Below are positions 1 to 13,770 of a DNA stretch of 64,000 bases, one piece after another (the stretch's first letter is position 1; each line of letters begins with the position of its first letter). Source of the DNA: Thaumarchaeota archaeon CSP1-1 (GTDB lineage Archaea; Thermoproteota; Nitrososphaeria; Nitrososphaerales; Nitrosopumilaceae); contig LDXL01000001.1 in the NCBI GenBank assembly GCA_001443365.1, positions 62,001 to 126,000 of the forward strand, in the 5' to 3' direction. The position numbers and the translations under genes are program-made. The notes beneath the pieces were generated by a model that did no database searches, was not told the origin of the DNA, and saw only the letters and a program-made list of their open reading frames with translations.

Positions 1-74
1 TCTTCACTTTTTCCATTAGGTAATTTTGTACTTATTAGCTCAACATCTTTGTGAAGCGGACAAGTTTTTTTCAT
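1..74 (-). CDS. Small zinc-finger protein, copy 1 (partial)
   Basis: The ATG is complementary to 72-74 and the frame stays open to the window edge, about 24 codons. The start reads MKKTCPLHKDVELI and continues to PNGKSE. It matches the intact 38-aa protein at 12449-12565, so the missing part should hold a CPxC knuckle. The CPLH plus CPxC pattern suggests one zinc ion; the function is unknown. Compared with copy 2 at 4676 it has seven rather than six A residues after ATG, which keeps its frame intact. It is truncated only by the window boundary. Confidence 0.7.
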   Translation of the reverse strand, partial: MKKTCPLHKDVELISTKLPNGKSE

Positions 75-106
75 TCCAATTAAATCAAATGTAAAAATTT
101 TTCTTT
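1..106. repeat. Left arm of ~106-bp inverted repeat
   Basis: Read on the minus strand, 106 to 1 aligns with 4643-4748 on the plus strand. By eye there are only six differences: four substitutions and two 1-nt indels. It covers a small zinc-finger gene and about 30 nt upstream of it, and the true left end lies outside the window. The two arms bracket the copA/CBS block. Confidence 0.9.
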
Positions 107-123
107 AAATAAATAACAAATTA

Positions 124-564
124 TTATACAAGCTTTGACTTTTCTCGATCAAAATAAGAAACAACACTAGGTTTCCACATGTAAAAGAAAACTATGACAT
201 CCAAAACGATATGCGGTATTGCAAACAGATTGCCTATTACAAGAGTCGCACAATGAATAAGAAAATCCACTATCGATAGTACTATTACGGTTATTCTACC
301 CCAACTCTTTCCACTAAACAAGGCGTATGCTATAGTAAACTCTATTCCTGCAAGGATTCCAATAAAAACTACAAAACTTCCTCCCATAGCTGAAATCATG
401 TTATTCATCATGGAAGAATAGCTTCCTAACATTGCCATGAACGTTCCAATCATTGCAGCTGCTATTGACATGAGAATTGCAACAACAATAAAGGAAATAC
501 CAAGGATTGTAATGCCTATTGGTCTTTCTGATTGTGTGGCTGTACTTTTAGTAGTATCCGTCAA
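124..564 (-). CDS. Small four-helix membrane protein
   Basis: A 146-aa protein with a short polar N-terminus (about 15 residues rich in Thr/Ser) and four predicted membrane segments near residues 17-40, 62-83, 90-112 and 115-131. It carries a conserved-looking loop GKSWGR near residue 86 and the motif PHIVLDV before the last helix, then a charged cytoplasmic tail. No catalytic motif is visible. It is the last gene of a leftward three-gene unit with the Met-rich protein (34-nt gap) and the TRASH-like protein, divergent from copA. A role at the membrane in copper handling is inferred from neighbours only. Confidence 0.75.
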   Translation of the reverse strand: MTDTTKSTATQSERPIGITILGISFIVVAILMSIAAAMIGTFMAMLGSYSSMMNNMISAMGGSFVVFIGILAGIEFTIAYALFSGKSWGRITVIVLSIVDFLIHCATLVIGNLFAIPHIVLDVIVFFYMWKPSVVSYFDREKSKLV

Positions 565-598
565 AACAATGATACCTCAATTTTTTCTCCTGAAGCAT

Positions 599-1150
599 CT
601 ATGGGTTCATCATCCCTGGACTCATCATGCCAGTCATGTTTCCTTGCATCATTTGCCTCATTTCTTGCATGGTCTCCTGATTTTCTGACATGTGACCTAA
701 CATTTGCATTCTAAGAGTTGGATCGTTAATAATCACCTTCATCATTTCCTGCATGAACTCATGATTTTCTTTCATAGCTTGACTCATCAACTCTATGTGT
801 TGTGGGTCTTGAATCATCCACTGACGCATTTGCTCTGGATTTTGCGCCATGTATCCAAACATTTGTTGGCGCATCTGTGGGTCGCTCATCATATTATTCA
901 TCCAACTGTTCATGGACTGCGGATTTTGCATCATTGTGTTCATCCAACTATTCATTGCTTGAGGATTGTCCATCATGGTTTGATGCCACTGTGTCATCAT
1001 CTGTGGATTGTTCATCATTTGCTGCATCTGTTGTGGCATCATCATTGTAAAATTAGGTTGATTGTAAGATTGGAATGCTGCATATCCAATTCCAAGGCCT
1101 GCAAAAAACACTCCGACTGCTATGCCTATCCAGACCGATTGTGATGTCAA
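599..1150 (-). CDS. Met-rich membrane-anchored repeat protein, putative copper binder
   Basis: 183 aa. Residues 7-28 form a signal/anchor helix (WIGIAVGVFFAGLGIGYAAF), so the rest should face outside. About 41 residues are Met, clustered with Gln, Asn and Pro. From about residue 40 there are five or six imperfect 14-residue repeats of the form MMxNPQxMxxWMxx, and the C-terminus is MMSPGMMNP. Met clusters bind Cu(I), and the gene lies 3 nt after the TRASH-like gene and opposite copA, so external copper buffering is plausible. The NP-M repeat also resembles STI1-type helical repeats, so a chaperone-like role is an alternative. No close family recognised. Confidence 0.75.
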   Translation of the reverse strand: MTSQSVWIGIAVGVFFAGLGIGYAAFQSYNQPNFTMMMPQQMQQMMNNPQMMTQWHQTMMDNPQAMNSWMNTMMQNPQSMNSWMNNMMSDPQMRQQMFGYMAQNPEQMRQWMIQDPQHIELMSQAMKENHEFMQEMMKVIINDPTLRMQMLGHMSENQETMQEMRQMMQGNMTGMMSPGMMNP

Positions 1151-1153
1151 ATT

Positions 1154-1339
1154 CTAACAACATCCTCCACGTCTACGCGGATGTTTTCTTTCTTCCTCTT
1201 CCATTCTTTTTTCGTATTCTTCCTTTTTCTTTAGATATTGTTGAGAATGATCTTCAGAACAGAAATATCTTCCAAATCTTTTAGGCGCAGTTTTCTTATC
1301 GACCTCGATGCCACAGGTCTGACAGTGTTTTTCAAACAT
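1154..1339 (-). CDS. TRASH-like Cys-rich small protein
   Basis: 61 aa from the ATG at 1339. The frame stays open upstream to 1402, but a TATA-like element at 1354-1367 lies inside that extension and about 22 nt before 1339, so a leaderless start at 1339 is preferred. It contains CxxC (Cys6, Cys9), then FCSExH (Cys27, His31), the layout of TRASH/YHS metal-sensing knuckles. A charged Lys/Glu helix and a C-terminal RRRGGCC follow. It is the first gene of the unit with the Met-rich protein. A metal-sensing or metallochaperone role for copA is inferred. Confidence 0.6.
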   Translation of the reverse strand: MFEKHCQTCGIEVDKKTAPKRFGRYFCSEDHSQQYLKKKEEYEKRMEEEERKHPRRRGGCC

Positions 1340-1353
1340 GTTATCTATCAAAC

Positions 1354-1367
1354 AATTTATACAATTT
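1354..1367 (-). promoter_or_regulatory. TATA box of the leftward copper unit
   Basis: The minus strand reads AAATTGTATAAATT, centred about 22 nt before the ATG at 1339. This is the usual spacing for a leaderless thaumarchaeal transcript and is the reason for choosing the shorter TRASH-like protein. Confidence 0.5.
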
Positions 1368-1397
1368 AACACCTTGTGGTCGTTTTTAATGGTGAGA

Positions 1398-1409
1398 ATC
1401 ATAAATGAT
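1398..1409. promoter_or_regulatory. Short palindrome between divergent copper promoters
   Basis: ATCAT-AA-ATGAT, two perfect 5-nt arms, lies midway between the leftward TATA box (1354-1367) and the rightward AT-rich box before copA (about 1440-1452). A shared operator for both transcripts is possible; a 5-bp arm is short and may be chance. Confidence 0.3.
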
Positions 1410-1463
1410 AATGGTATTGTTCAACTAAAAGAAGAGATTCAATATTTAAAAAGTGACTGAAAA

Positions 1464-3641
1464 ATGGCAAAAGATCCAGTTTGTGGCATGATAGTAGATG
1501 AAAAAAGGGCACTAAATTCTGATATCGGAGGTAGAACTTTCTATTTTTGCAGCCCAGTCTGTCAAAAGACATTCCTTGAACCGGAAAAAGAACTGGCTAA
1601 AATGAAAAAAAGAATGTATGTGGCAGCTTCCGGTGCTCTGGCACTTGCAATCATAAGAGCCGGAGCTTATATCGCGCTTGCCGCAGGAGCTATTGCATTT
1701 ACGTGGGTTCCGTTTCCGGAAATTCCATTTCTATCTTATGGCTTACTTCTTTTCTTTATTGTAACACCAGTCCAATTCATTGGTGGATGGTCATTTTATG
1801 TTGGGGCATTTCATGCAATCAAAAGACGTACTGCCAACATGGATTTACTTATTTCAATTGGAACTCTTACAGCTTATATTTACAGTACAATCGTATTGTT
1901 CTTTCCTGATGTAATACCAACAGAAGAAAAGTACGTCTATTTTGAAGTTTCAGCTGTAATCATAGCCTTTGTACTTTTTGGCAAGTACATGGAAGAGGCA
2001 ATCAAAAAGAAAAGCTCAGCTGCTGTGAGAAAATTGTTAGATCTAAAACCTGCTATGGCAACAGTAATCAAGAATGGAAACGAGGTCCAAATTCCTGCAA
2101 ATCAGGTAGAGATAGGCTATATCATGATTGTAAAGCCCGGTGAGAAGATTCCAACTGATGGAATAGTAGTTGAAGGAGAATCTTCTGTAGATGAGAAGAT
2201 GATAACTGGAGAGAGTCTTCCGGTAGGCAAAACAAAAGGTGATGAAGTTATTGGCGCTACGGTAAACAAACATGGCTTACTAAAAGTAAAAGCAACAAAG
2301 GTTGGAAAGGAAACAGCACTTTCTCAAATAATCCATATTGTTGAACAAGCACAAGCATCTACGGCAAAGGTACAACGTCTGGCTGACTCTATTTCAGCAA
2401 AATTTGTTCCGGCTGTTGTAATTACTTCTGTTTTGACATTTGTGATTTGGACATTTGTACTTGGTGATCTTGTATCAGGCATACTAACATTTGTTGCTGT
2501 TTTGATTATAGCGTGTCCTTGTGCCCTAGGTGTAGCAACGCCAGCAGCCTTAATGGTTGGAGTAGGGAAAGGTGCAGAGTCTGGTATTTTGATAAGAGGG
2601 GCTGAATATCTAGAGCGTTCTCAAAAAGTCAACACAATAGTATTTGATAAGACTGGCACTCTTACAAAAGGAGAACCCGAAGTTACAGATGTTGTGACTT
2701 TTGGAACTTTGTCAGAAAAACAAATTGTTGAATTTGCTGGAGCAGTTGAATCAGGATCAGAGCATCCAATAGCACAAGCTGTTGTAAAAAGAGCAAAAAT
2801 GGAAAGAGCCACATTTCCTAATTTAGACAAATTTGAAGCGCTTAATGGTTTGGGTGTAAAGGCAATAGTAAATGGAACATCTGTATATGCTGGAAATCGT
2901 AAAATGATGAAAAAGTTTACCATTCCAACAGAATCTGTTGAAGAAAAGATGTCAAGACTAGAATCAGAAGGAAAAACCGCAATCATGGTTGCTATCAATA
3001 GCAAAGTTGTGGGAATTATTGCAGTAGCTGACTCTCTAAAAGAATCTTCCCCAAATGCAATTACAGCTTTGAAGGATCTAGGTATTGAGTGTATGATGAT
3101 AACTGGAGATAATGAAAAAACAGCAAAAGCAATTGCAAAAAGCGTTGGCATTGAAAAAGTAATTGCAAACGTTCTCCCTTCTGACAAGGCAGTTGAAATA
3201 AAGAAGCTCCAGTCAGAGGGAAAGGTCGTTGCGATGGTAGGTGACGGAATTAATGATGCACCTGCATTGGCACAGGCAGATATCGGAATTGCGATTGGAA
3301 GTGGTTCTGATATTGCAAAGGAAACTGGAGGAATCATTCTGATCAAAGATGACGTTATGGACGTATCAAGAGCCATCAAGCTCAGCAGGGCAACAATGAA
3401 AAAGATAAAACAAAATCTGTTTTGGGCATTTGCTTACAATTCTGGGGCCATACCAATTGCCGCAATTGGTTTGCTTAGTCCAATTCTTGCAGCAGCTGCC
3501 ATGGCTCTTAGCTCAATCTCAGTAATTGCCAATTCTTCTCTTTTAAAACGATACAAAATTACAAGTGGTGAAGAAAAATTGTTCCCTATGAAAACGATAA
3601 ACTCATCAACTAGGGAAAAAACAATTGAAATTACGCATTAA
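1464..3641 (+). CDS. copA: Copper-type P1B ATPase with N-terminal YHS domain
   Basis: 725 aa. An N-terminal YHS metal-binding domain (DPVCGM with Cys7, and CSPVC with Cys29/Cys33) replaces the usual HMA domain. The P1B core follows: actuator TGES near residue 250, the transmembrane metal site CPC near 351-353 in ACPCALG, phosphorylation motif DKTGT near 395, SEHP in the nucleotide domain near 432, and GDGINDAP near 592. The CPC motif indicates Cu(I) (or Ag(I)) export across the cytoplasmic membrane by ATP hydrolysis. It is transcribed divergently from the TRASH-like/Met-rich unit, which supports a copper role. Copper is also the cofactor of much of thaumarchaeal ammonia oxidation. Confidence 0.93.
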
Positions 3642-3755
3642 ATTATAACGGAGCTAATAGTAAGGTATAGGAACTGAATCTGTAAATTTCACATTTGATA
3701 ATTCTCTTCGGTCTTTTAAAGCCACCAAACATATAGAACTTTGTAAGGTGAGAAT

Positions 3756-4637
3756 ATGAAAACCTCAACAAAAGGGAAGAGTATTTCAGAATTAACTCTA
3801 GAAGAACTTTTTCCAGATACATTAACTGATACATCTTGTGTTTACGTTGATAAAGAAAGAGAAGTCTGGGTTGCCACCGAATTGTGTGCCCAGTATATAG
3901 AATCTACCATAGATGCTATTGTAGTTCGAGATAAAGGCAAACCCATTGGTATAGTAGGTGGCTATGATCTATTAGATCATTTACGAAAAAATCCAACACG
4001 TGATTTTCAATATCAACACAAAATAGAAAAAATTATGTTTAAAAAATTTCCACAAGTTGAAAAACAAACAAAATTCAAGGATTTGATAGAAAAATGGAAA
4101 GACACCCGAAGGGCTTTTGCCGTTATTTCTAAAAATTCCGGCGATTTTTCACCCATCTCTGCAAGAAAAATGCTTGAGGTTGGTACTAGATTCAAAACCG
4201 ACATTTCAGTTTCATCGATGCCAAAAAAGAAGATTATCACTTTTCAAGGAGATGAACCTTTGCGTAAGATACTTGATTTAATGTTTGATAATAAAACGCG
4301 AAAACTTTTACTGGTAAATTCTAATCAATTTATCAGTGATAGGACAATACTTGAAGGACTTTCAAGAATGATAAAGTTTCAAAAAGATATTGATAATTTC
4401 TTGGATGTTCCAATTAATCAGGTTACATTTGATCACATTAAGGTAATCACCGAAGATCTAAAGTTTGACCAACTTTGTTCGGTGATGAACAAGATGGAAC
4501 ATCCTTATGTAATCTATAAGGACATAATAGTCAGCCCATGGGATGTGTGTCTTGCTTTGGCTACAGAAGAATTGGTGGAACCACTTGTATCGAGATATCA
4601 AAAGAAATGTCCACATTGTGGCAAGAATATAGATTAG
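3756..4637 (+). CDS. CBS-like protein with C-terminal zinc ribbon
   Basis: 293 aa. Several CBS-like units are suggested by repeats such as DAIVVRDKGKPIGIVGG (about 50-65) and PYVIYKDIIVSPWDVCLAL near 250-270, where the latter resembles the closing strand-helix of a CBS unit. The tail CPHCGKNID adds one half of a zinc knuckle. The start is the ATG at 3756, preceded by GGTGAG at a good ribosome-binding distance. A paralog at 41481-42302 shares the overall plan (SLxELxPDxLTxTxCV at the N-terminus, KMEHPY near the C-terminus) but lacks the zinc tail. CBS proteins usually sense adenosine nucleotides; partner and target are unknown here. Confidence 0.75.
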   Translation: MKTSTKGKSISELTLEELFPDTLTDTSCVYVDKEREVWVATELCAQYIESTIDAIVVRDKGKPIGIVGGYDLLDHLRKNPTRDFQYQHKIEKIMFKKFPQVEKQTKFKDLIEKWKDTRRAFAVISKNSGDFSPISARKMLEVGTRFKTDISVSSMPKKKIITFQGDEPLRKILDLMFDNKTRKLLLVNSNQFISDRTILEGLSRMIKFQKDIDNFLDVPINQVTFDHIKVITEDLKFDQLCSVMNKMEHPYVIYKDIIVSPWDVCLALATEELVEPLVSRYQKKCPHCGKNID

Positions 4638-4642
4638 ATTCA

Positions 4643-4748
4643 AAAGAAAAATTTTTACATTTTGATTTAATTGTAATGAAAAAACTTGTCCACTTCACAA
4701 AGGCGTTGAGCTAATAAGTACAAAATTACCTAATGGAAAAAGTGAAGA
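4643..4748. repeat. Right arm of ~106-bp inverted repeat
   Basis: Inverted copy of 1-106, aligned with six differences by eye. It contains the frameshifted second zinc-finger gene. From about 4707 to 4748 the two arms are identical, which points to a recent duplication or to gene conversion. Confidence 0.9.
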
Positions 4749-4792
4749 TTATTGCCCTAAATGTCAGGAATTATTTGGAGAAAAGATATGAG
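4676..4792 (+). pseudogene. Small zinc-finger gene, copy 2, frameshifted
   Basis: The ATG at 4676 is followed by six A residues instead of the seven in copy 1. Read from ATG, the frame ends after 11 codons at TAA (4712). Read one frame over, the sequence gives KTCPLHKGVELISTKLPNG, then DYCPKCQELFGEKI and TGA at 4790-4792, matching the intact gene at 12449. No in-frame start codon lies between the upstream stop (4663) and the coding frame. It is either a recent pseudogene, a slippage-decoded gene at the A-run, or a sequencing error in a homopolymer. Confidence 0.75.
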
Positions 4793-4827
4793 TTTATTCT
4801 TGTCATCAAAAATAAACGTCAATTATA

Positions 4828-7302: not shown

Positions 7303-8085
7303 TTAGTTACTTCCAATTAGAAATATTACATTAGCAGTTGTAGTGACATCTTGATCAGATGAGAACACTGGTGTAGATGATTTGGCAAAAGAAGCATCAG
7401 CTCCATATCCTGATTCATAAATTGGCATTGGATATGGAATGCCAAATTCTGACAAGGAGATAGCCTTGACTCCAATTATTTTGTGATTAAGTGGTACAAG
7501 TGCCTTGTTTGCTCTGGATTCGGCATTTTTTACTGCTTGAGAAATAAGGTTATCCTTTACCTCAAGTTGTTTTTCTGGTGAAAGTGTAAAGTAAACACTA
7601 TCAACTCTGTTTACACCAGCAGCAACTGCGCTATCGATAATGTCTGCAGCAGAATCCAATTTCATGGTTTCAACCGTTACAATATTTGAAACTCTGTATC
7701 CTATGAGCAGTTGTGTGTATCTACCAGTAGCTTTATCCTCGTAGCTGTCATAGATTGGTTGAATATTCAGGCTAGATGTGTGTAGATCGTCCTCGCTTAT
7801 ACCTACACTTGTAATTGCCCCAATCACACTTGTCATTAGATTAGAGTTTGATTCAAGAGCTTGTCTTGCGGTTTTTTCTTGGGTTTCAACTCCAAATTGG
7901 ATGACCAGTAAATCAGGATCAACTGAAGTAGTTGCAGTTCCAGTTACCGAGATTACCTTTTCCCTTGACGGAAACGGAGTTGTTTCCTGGGCTGTCGCTT
8001 GATTATCTATCTGTGTAAGACTAACAGCAAACGCAAGTACTAGAACAATACCGGTGATTACTGCAAAGTCAATTTTTCTGTTCAT
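7303..8085 (-). CDS. SIMPL (DUF541) domain secreted protein
   Basis: 260 aa with an N-terminal signal/anchor (residues 5-25, IDFAVITGIVLVLAFAVSL). The mature part begins with ISVTGTATTSVDPDLLVIQFGVE, the typical opening of the SIMPL family, and contains the later family segment LISQAVKNAESRANKA near 185. SIMPL proteins are periplasmic or cell-surface proteins related to BP26 and the eukaryotic IRAK-interacting SIMPL; their molecular role is not settled. Divergent from the PLD-like gene at 8198. Confidence 0.85.
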   Translation of the reverse strand: MNRKIDFAVITGIVLVLAFAVSLTQIDNQATAQETTPFPSREKVISVTGTATTSVDPDLLVIQFGVETQEKTARQALESNSNLMTSVIGAITSVGISEDDLHTSSLNIQPIYDSYEDKATGRYTQLLIGYRVSNIVTVETMKLDSAADIIDSAVAAGVNRVDSVYFTLSPEKQLEVKDNLISQAVKNAESRANKALVPLNHKIIGVKAISLSEFGIPYPMPIYESGYGADASFAKSSTPVFSSDQDVTTTANVIFLIGSN

Positions 8086-8861: not shown

Positions 8862-9434
8862 TCAAAACTTGAAGTTATTCGCATCCATTCTTTCTTTATT
8901 TTCTAGAAAATTCATTTTTGATATTTTATAGTAAATTACTTCTCCTCTCCTTTCAATAACAGCTATTATGGGTTCTTTTCCCATCTGTGTAATCTGTTCA
9001 ATCTTTTTTTGAAGCTGACCAATTTTTTCTTGTTTTCCTTCATTAAGACCAAATACCAAATATTTTGCGCCTTTTTCACCAAAGTCTCCTCTTTCATAAA
9101 CACGAAAATCCGATCCAAATCCAAACCCGTCTTTTACTGTATACCCCCTAGTTCTCAAATCTCGATAAATTAGAAATTTTGTTAATGATTCTTCGTCTTG
9201 TTTTATACATGTCTGCATCAATGAATCAAAATCAATTCTCTTTTTTCCTTTTGAAAGTTTGAGTTTGTCGCAGTATAGAAGATAAAGAGATTCAAAGGGT
9301 TTTAGAAAAAATTCTTTCTTGCTTAGTTCTCCATATCCTTTTTGTTCAAGACTCTGTTGCATAGCCTTACTTGTTATCAGAGTTTGATCTTGAACCAATT
9401 CCCCTTCAACCTGTGGTTCTGAGTCTATGGACAT
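8862..9434 (-). CDS. tRNA-intron endonuclease family protein (EndA-like)
   Basis: 190 aa. The C-terminal half carries the EndA fold signature: FLIYRDLRTRGYTVKDGF, then GSDFRVYERG and AKYLVFGL, and a final strand IIAVIERRGEVIYYKIS. EndA cuts bulge-helix-bulge introns from tRNA precursors, and the tRNA-Ser at 44860 needs such an enzyme. The Tyr of FRVY and a Lys before the last strand are present. The residue before AKYLV, normally the catalytic His, is Gly. This suggests either the structural partner of an (alpha-beta)2 enzyme or a divergent active site. A palindromic TATA at 9453-9462 fits a leaderless start at 9434. Confidence 0.75.
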   Translation of the reverse strand: MSIDSEPQVEGELVQDQTLITSKAMQQSLEQKGYGELSKKEFFLKPFESLYLLYCDKLKLSKGKKRIDFDSLMQTCIKQDEESLTKFLIYRDLRTRGYTVKDGFGFGSDFRVYERGDFGEKGAKYLVFGLNEGKQEKIGQLQKKIEQITQMGKEPIIAVIERRGEVIYYKISKMNFLENKERMDANNFKF

Positions 9435-9552: not shown

Positions 9553-10047
9553 ATGCACGGTGCAAATTATAGAAGAGGAAATGGTCAGCCTTATACCAGA
9601 AAAAAGTACATCAAGGGTAAGCCTCAGATAAAAATTGCAAAATTTGAAGGTGGAAAAGCAGGCGACTATGATTACAACGTTCAATTATTGTTAAATGAAA
9701 AATTGCAAATTACTCATACCGCAATTGAATCAGCAAGGCTTGCAGCAAACAAAAAAGTAGAAAATGTTGCAGGTGAAACAGGTTTCTATTCAAAGCTTCG
9801 AATCTATCCTCATGTGCTATTAAGAGAAAATAAAATGATTGCAGCAGCTGGTGCAGACAGATTACAGGAGGGGATGAGACGAGCCTTTGGAAAGGCACTG
9901 AATTTAGGTGCTCGTGTGAAAGCAGGCCAATGCATAATGGAGATGCATGTTAAAACAGAACATCTTGAATTGGCCAAAAAAGCGATGAAAGGCGCTTGTG
10001 TAAAGTTACCAGGAACTCCTACCATCAAAGTCATTCCATTAAAATAA
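9553..10047 (+). CDS. rpl10e: Ribosomal protein uL16 (L10e)
   Basis: 164 aa from the ATG at 9553; a TTG one codon earlier (9550) is possible, but the ATG sits better behind GGTGAT. Family features are the N-terminal NYRRGNGQPYTRKKYIKG, the GADRLQEGMRRAFGK segment near 110, and the GQ-I-M-M-V stretch near 130. It is a large-subunit protein near the peptidyl-transferase centre and the tRNA elbow. It is a single gene with its own promoter and an unusual inverted repeat in the leader or promoter. Confidence 0.95.
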   Translation: MHGANYRRGNGQPYTRKKYIKGKPQIKIAKFEGGKAGDYDYNVQLLLNEKLQITHTAIESARLAANKKVENVAGETGFYSKLRIYPHVLLRENKMIAAAGADRLQEGMRRAFGKALNLGARVKAGQCIMEMHVKTEHLELAKKAMKGACVKLPGTPTIKVIPLK

Positions 10048-12353: not shown

Positions 12354-12448
12354 CTGATCGTAGTATATGATTTCATTTAAAAACAGTTTTATTTCATTAG
12401 AAATTCTTCTGGCAATCCATATACTAGAATCAGTTTTAATTATACCAG

Positions 12449-12565
12449 ATGAGAGCCACCTGTCCCCTTCACAGAGATGTTGAACTAATTCATACTAAGC
12501 TGCCAAATGGAGAAACCAAAGATTACTGCCCCAGATGCGAAGAACTGTTTGGAGAAAAGATATGA
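12449..12565 (+). CDS. Small zinc-finger protein, copy 3 (intact)
   Basis: 38 aa from ATG 12449 to TGA 12563. The order is TCPLHRDVELI, then TKLPNGETKDYCPRCEELFGEKI. Cys5/His8 and Cys27/Cys30 can form one C-H-C-C zinc site. It is the only intact complete copy of a three-member family in this window (others at 1-74 and 4676-4792). It is less similar at DNA level than copies 1 and 2 are to each other, so its duplication is older. Function unknown; the size and fold suggest a nucleic-acid or protein adaptor. Confidence 0.7.
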   Translation: MRATCPLHRDVELIHTKLPNGETKDYCPRCEELFGEKI

Positions 12566-12631
12566 TTCTTCTCACCCACGAGTATTATGATCATGTTTTG
12601 GATCCTTTATAGCTGGTCTAATTCTGTTCGT

Positions 12632-13306
12632 TTATCTTAGTAGCTCCTTAGCCTTTACAAATATTGAATTCCACTGTGACCAAGTTAGTCTACCAGTTTG
12701 GGTATTTTGTCGGCTAGGATGATAGGAACAAATTATGAATTTAGTTCTATGCTTAAACACATACCCATGAGAAAATTTCTGTCTCTTGATTCCTAAAATT
12801 CTGCAAACAGTTGTAAATGCTATTCTTCCTAAACAAATAATTATTTCCAAATTTTGAAGAAACACAAATTCGTTTTTCAAATACTCTGAACAATTTTTTA
12901 ATTCAATATCAAGTGGTTTATTTTCTGGTGGGGCACATCTAACAACAGCAGTAATGTATGCATTAATTAAACAAAAACCATCAGTCTTATGGGAACTTAC
13001 TGGTTGAGTTGCAAAACCATTTTCAAATAGGACCTTTGCTACCCAATCCCCTGATGAATCCCCAGTAAACATTCGGCCTGTTCTATTTCCACCATGTGCT
13101 GCTGGTGCCAAACCTACAATCAAAATTTTGCCATTAACATCTCCAAAACCCGGTAGCGGTTTACCCCAATACTTTTCATCTTTAAATCGCTTTATCTTGG
13201 TCTGCGAAATTTCTTTAATGTATGAATTTAATCTTGGGCATTTTTTACATTTGATTATTCTTATGTTCAGAGCTCTGAGAGTTCGGGATCCCAATTTTTC
13301 CACCAA
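12632..13306 (-). CDS. Family 5 uracil-DNA glycosylase (UDGb)
   Basis: 224 aa. Motif A reads GLAPAAHGGNRTGRMFTGD (residues 65-83), the signature of type-5 UDGb enzymes, which lack the polar catalytic residue of other families. Motif B is SYHPSRQNTQTGRLT near the C-terminus. Cys20, Cys23, Cys124 and Cys139 are placed to bind the 4Fe-4S cluster of thermophilic/archaeal UDGs. It removes uracil, and often hypoxanthine, from DNA in base excision repair. Full length for the family. Confidence 0.93.
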   Translation of the reverse strand: MVEKLGSRTLRALNIRIIKCKKCPRLNSYIKEISQTKIKRFKDEKYWGKPLPGFGDVNGKILIVGLAPAAHGGNRTGRMFTGDSSGDWVAKVLFENGFATQPVSSHKTDGFCLINAYITAVVRCAPPENKPLDIELKNCSEYLKNEFVFLQNLEIIICLGRIAFTTVCRILGIKRQKFSHGYVFKHRTKFIICSYHPSRQNTQTGRLTWSQWNSIFVKAKELLR

Positions 13307-13590
13307 ATAAAATGAACACGACTTTACTTGTTATTATAGGTTGAACACTTGTCATAGCTTGCTCTATGTAGCTTTTAGATATTTTTTAACGATTCTAGTT
13401 TTACTTTCAAGGTTTGAATCCAGTCCCCCGTACCCTCATAGGGACTAGAACTATTAGTTCGATTCCTCCAAATCAACAAGTCTATTCTGGACAATAGTTT
13501 GATCAGATATCTATTGGCATCTGACACATTTTCTATCTGAATCCAATGCCCAATCAAGGATTAATAGTAGAAACCCTTTCAAAATTTACC
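13307..13590. other. Gene-poor stretch
   Basis: I see no convincing coding region here. A hairpin AGTCCC/GGGACT lies in the 13410-13445 area, and a competing 7-nt pair TTCTAGT/ACTAGAA spans it. A fragment resembling a tRNA T-loop (GGTTTGAATCC) is present but does not pair as a T arm. A 60-codon minus-strand open frame (13375-13557) shows no protein character. Confidence 0.4.
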
Positions 13591-13652
13591 GCAGAGTGAT
13601 GAGTAGGTCATCTGAAACTAATGTGGAAAAATGACCTGGGGTATCTGACTGC
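13591..13652 (+). ncRNA. Candidate C/D box sRNA
   Basis: The order is terminal stem GCAG (13591-13594), C box GTGATGA (13596-13602), D' box CTGA (13612-13615), a degenerate C' box such as ATGTGGA (13621-13627), D box CTGA (13645-13648) and terminal stem CTGC (13649-13652), which pairs perfectly with GCAG. The 62-nt size and box order fit archaeal 2'-O-methylation guides. The guide next to D would be about GACCTGGGGTAT. The C-to-D' spacer is only 9 nt and C' is imperfect, which lowers certainty. Confidence 0.45.
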
Positions 13653-13770
13653 TCTTTGAGTTTAGTTTTAGGATAAAGTTCCACTGGAAACACATGTATT
13701 AGTATAGAGTAAGATATGACCATTTTTTTGTGCCAGAAATGGTAACTTTACAATTACCTAGCTATTAATA

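Follow-up and report, generated by a model that had tools for sequence, protein, structure and literature searches.

A metal/redox island at tRNA-Glu(CTC) with an inverted zinc-finger gene pair in a Nitrosopumilaceae-type ammonia-oxidising archaeon

A ~9.9-kb insertion lies directly 3' of tRNA-Glu(CTC) in the lineage of a Nitrosopumilaceae-type ammonia-oxidising archaeon and, from its gene content, would be a metal and redox-stress island. We think it quite probable that two inverted copies of a zinc-finger gene inside this island owe their likeness to a recent duplication or to the overwriting of one by the other through conversion, that the right-hand copy is now decaying, and that the resulting inverted repeat is a by-product of this history and no switch. 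The parts are of ordinary kinds; what is new is the particular case, in which a copper island at a tRNA site contains a small gene duplication in inverted orientation. The DNA analysed (the window, 64,000 nucleotides) corresponds to C1:62001-126000 of the source genome, G000, whose assembly comprises 1.36 Mb in 10 contigs.

The insertion between tRNA-Glu(CTC) and the SIMPL gene

The ends of the insertion were located with an empty site in the same-genus genome G001 (same-genus genomes are incomplete, at 63-84%), where C68:9741-9858 matches C1:59273-59390 of G000 and the match resumes from position 9858 at C1:69278 onward. In G001, G005, G012, G004, and G018, which represent five genera, tRNA-Glu(CTC) and the SIMPL gene are convergent, direct neighbours 25-60 bp apart, and the 9.9 kb in G000 is thus a derived insertion. 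The preliminary description treated the inverted zinc-finger copies as brackets around the copper genes as a unit; the real boundary is that of the insertion, which extends about 2.5 kb past each repeat arm (Table 1).

The GC content of the insertion is not distinct (0.365 vs. 0.349). All of its large ORFs are accounted for and none is an integrase, and no match to PF00589 (Phage_integrase) was found in the whole G000 genome, while all 14 control genomes matched. Between the two ends of the insertion in G000 there is no direct repeat, and no convincing end repeat, direct or inverted, was seen. With neither an integrase nor direct repeats at its ends, how the insertion arrived is unproven. In G002 different DNA fills this site, and a 14-bp direct repeat, AGCATTACTATTTG, flanks it on either side; the reading comes from two contigs (C22:20174-20501 and C40:1-454). 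Occupied by the copper island in G000 and by other DNA in G002, and empty in G001 and four other genera, the gap separating tRNA-Glu(CTC) from the SIMPL gene resembles a hotspot of integration. A 53-nt end sequence (G000 C1:59391-59443 and G002 C40:377-429) is 83% identical between the two insertions and sits at opposite, inverted insertion ends; it is possibly an element end.

Table 1. Features of the tRNA-Glu(CTC) insertion and its surroundings. Positions are window positions unless prefixed with C1.
Feature	Position	Strand	Remark
tRNA-Glu(CTC)	C1:59306-59381		Left neighbour of insertion
Insertion, ~9.9 kb	C1:59391-69278 (window part 1..~7278)		Between tRNA-Glu(CTC) and SIMPL gene
BNR, YtkA-like, and DsbA-like genes	Left of window		Part of insertion
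Left repeat arm (copy A)	1..106, on to C1:61948, 53 nt left of window	-	
Copy A, zinc-finger gene	1..74; CDS C1:61961-62074	-	Intact, 38 aa, C2HC; N-terminal part in window
Multi-pass membrane protein, 146 aa	124..564	-	Weak DUF7144 similarity
Met-rich protein, 183 aa	599..1150	-	
TRASH-like small Cys protein	1154..1402	-	True start may be internal
YHS-domain copper P1B ATPase (CopA type)	1464..3641	+	CPC motif
CBS-domain protein	3756..4637	+	C-terminal zinc ribbon
Right repeat arm (copy B)	4643..4801	+	94-95% identical to A
Copy B, zinc-finger frame	4676..4791	+	Pseudogene-like; A missing after ATG, D10 to G, no in-frame start
Membrane protein, 793 aa	4828..7209	-	Spermidine-synthase-like domain; last gene of insertion
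SIMPL/oxidative-stress-type gene	7303..8085	-	Right flank of ancestral empty site
Copy C, zinc-finger gene	12449-12565 (about C1:74449-74562)	+	Intact, diverged third copy, 76% aa; inside separate ~1.3-kb insertion

The island's gene order would read BNR, YtkA-like, DsbA-like, zinc finger, membrane, Met-rich, TRASH-like, CopA, CBS-zinc ribbon, zinc-finger copy, and spermidine-synthase-like, and the genes between the repeats are those named in the preliminary description. The CopA translation carries CPCALG and MALSS motifs and scores 585 bits against TIGR01511 (cut-off, 397), so that by family score and Cu(I) motifs it is a predicted P1B-1 copper ATPase. It is similar to the CopA-type P1B-1 copper-exporting ATPases PDB 3j09 and 3rfu (E 6e-177 and 1e-159), with which it has the CPC motif in common, but its N-terminal domain is YHS where these known ATPases have HMA. 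Going by the families, CopA would export copper, and the divergent TRASH/Met-rich/membrane operon may supply its periplasmic or sensing partners.

The inverted zinc-finger copies and their origin

Window positions 1-106 (minus) and 4643-4748 (plus) had been described as inverted, near-identical copies differing at six places. Our alignment agrees and resolves the six places into four substitutions and two single-base indels. Once sequence left of the window is included, the repeat is longer than first noted, at 159 vs. 160 nt (C1:61948-62106 vs. C1:66643-66801, the latter at window 4643-4801), with 152 of 161 aligned columns identical (six mismatches and two internal indels; about 94-95% identity) and a longest identical run of 66 nt. 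In a search of the genome against itself the two arms match at E about 1e-64, and no further full copy occurs in the 1.36-Mb assembly. The shared tract has sharp ends, past which there is no diverged homologous sequence.

Both arms had been thought to carry a 38-aa zinc-finger gene. This holds for the left copy, A, which is intact (MKKTCPLHKDVELISTKLPNGKSEDYCPKCQELFGEKI, 38 aa), and fails for the right copy, B, which is frameshifted. The run of A after the ATG has six bases in copy B, at window 4679-4684, and seven in copy A; the ATG frame therefore reads MKKLVHFTKALS-stop, ending after 12 residues, and the zinc-finger frame of copy B contains no ATG, GTG, or TTG start codon. Copy B also has a D10G change at a residue that copy C and most relatives keep as D. 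In the present assembly, then, copy B no longer has an intact reading frame and is in decay; a sequencing error in the homopolymer could, however, account for the single missing base, and copy B would then be intact.

The coding sequences of A and B differ at four positions, two of them third positions (of 38), and conservation is about as high in the 32 nt upstream and the 10 nt downstream. Such near-identity at third positions and in non-coding flanks is more than protein-level selection alone can account for, and it supports the earlier suggestion of gene conversion, or a recent duplication. By either route, the sequence comparison indicates a recent event. The A/B identity (~94%) exceeds the roughly 70-85% of orthologous DNA among same-genus genomes, and the event is thus probably younger than those species, dating from after the split of this lineage from the same-genus genomes. 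At codons 10 and 33, judged against copy C, the derived state is in B, so that all polarisable changes are in the right copy. We propose that a recent duplication produced a second, inverted copy of a ~160-bp stretch comprising the zinc-finger gene and ~32 nt upstream of it, or that one copy was overwritten by conversion; the left copy would have remained intact, and the right copy, behind the CBS gene, would have lost its frame and begun to decay. The protein itself probably belongs to the accessory cargo, as a small protein with a regulatory or redox role.

Copy C and a family-4 UDG-like gene make up a ~1.3-kb insertion (window ~12390-13741) that is absent at that place from G001, G002, and G003. 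UDG-like DNA is present elsewhere in G001 and G002.

Alternative readings of the repeat

Could the likeness of A and B have arisen otherwise? Across the zinc-finger family the Zn ligands are invariant and the C-terminus, FGEKI, is conserved, as purifying selection on the protein would produce, but we give this reading virtually no weight and reject it: between A and B, conservation extends equally to third positions and to the non-coding DNA on either side, and copy C, on which the same selection presumably acts, differs from A at 27 coding positions, including 15 of the 38 third positions. A tentative alternative, which we hold to be a good deal less probable than the account above, is that no new duplication took place and that two zinc-finger genes of older date, one beside the Met-rich/copper operon and one behind the CBS gene, underwent gene conversion. 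Both settings occur in relatives, the zinc finger adjoining a Met-rich gene in L147, L151, L153, L155, and L163 and lying directly behind or near a CBS gene in L156 and L161. However, the sharp ends of the shared tract, with no diverged homology beyond, are the pattern expected of simple duplication. It is highly improbable that the copper block was mobilised as a unit by a composite or MITE-like element with the repeats as its ends. Inverted copies do flank the block, and copy C likewise lies within an insertion, but neither terminal repeats nor a target duplication are evident for the 160-nt unit, it has no further copies, and the insertion's real ends are well outside the arms. The empty-site comparison, which puts these ends at tRNA-Glu and the SIMPL gene, led us to reject this reading.

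The preliminary description also raised flip-flop inversion. The copies would then be the arms of a reversible 4.5-kb segment, whose orientation would change with respect to the DsbA-like gene on one side and the spermidine-synthase-like gene on the other. The arms, 160 nt long and 94% identical with a 66-nt identical run, could recombine, and the CBS gene is plus, the same as copA, in the window and minus relative to copA in the relatives L065, L068, and L069. However, the divergent core and its own promoters would be internally the same after a flip, which would bring in no obvious outward promoter; L069, the relative with both BNR and CBS genes, fits neither flip state; the PF00589 search of the genome detected no tyrosine recombinase; and copy B is in decay, with the two arms growing apart in sequence. 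The two predicted states appeared in none of the relatives in which we compared block orientation, and no other genome among the relatives searched combines these flanks with this block. Invertible DNA segments of the phase-variation type, like this one, have inverted, near-identical arms around a gene block; the present case differs from them in having no recombinase of this kind, no apparent switching promoter, and one decaying arm, and in that both orientations were never seen among the relatives' genomes compared. Inversion of this type is therefore unsupported, and we regard it as improbable. A rare RecA-type or general homologous inversion between the arms is possible in principle. That the two copies recombine at low frequency, flipping the copper block or shuttling sequence by conversion, such that small repeated cargo genes actively reshuffle metal-gene order, seems to us slightly less probable still than a flip-flop.

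Relatives and integrated elements

Across 250 family genomes, CopA orthologues (E below 1e-200) were found in 22 and the zinc finger in 16. The named CopA relatives nearest to that of the window are from Nitrosotenuis, Nitrosarchaeum, and Nitrosopumilus, and the divergent TRASH/copA core is kept at eight loci in the genomes of six relatives. Homologues of the zinc finger adjoin or lie near Met-rich, CBS, UspA, multicopper oxidase, Trx, CcdA, and BNR genes (the UspA, multicopper oxidase, Trx, and CcdA neighbours were named from their sequences, without a family search). No relative of the zinc-finger family was found in IMG/VR viral contigs. The family is likely a patchy, sporadic cargo of such islands. 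In L162 (8986-9522), a CBS-domain protein has the same zinc finger fused C-terminally, which ties the family to CBS proteins. In L158 and L159 (around 8996-9108), the zinc-finger frame starts a few bases past the stop of a ferredoxin-like gene, which suggests that the two genes form an operon there.

The nearest known counterparts of the island are the integrated elements of thaumarchaea, 57% of which lie in tRNA genes and whose commonest genes include UspA, CBS, a Zn-ribbon arCOG, and multicopper oxidase (PMC6563490). The cryptic integrated elements (CIE) range from 2.6 to 98 kb and are mostly under 20 kb (PMC6563490). The island is like CIE in its insertion at a tRNA 3' end, its size, its patchy occurrence, and its cargo of CBS, Zn-ribbon, metal, and redox genes (PMC6563490). 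CIE are recognised by a derived insertion at a target that is empty in relatives, by flanking att direct repeats, and by an integrase gene. The island in G000 shows the first; unlike CIE, it has no att direct repeats or integrase that we could find, and it is thus at most a decayed or passively acquired CIE relative. A literature search for copper islands in Nitrosopumilus returned no direct match.

The inverted duplication as such is a local curiosity; if inversion were shown, it would exemplify the shuffling of accessory metal genes by repeats. Ammonia-oxidising archaea depend heavily on copper. Altogether, our analysis documents a predicted copper-export island in these archaea, located at an apparent hotspot of integration next to tRNA-Glu, and identifies a sporadic family of tiny zinc-finger proteins as likely island cargo.
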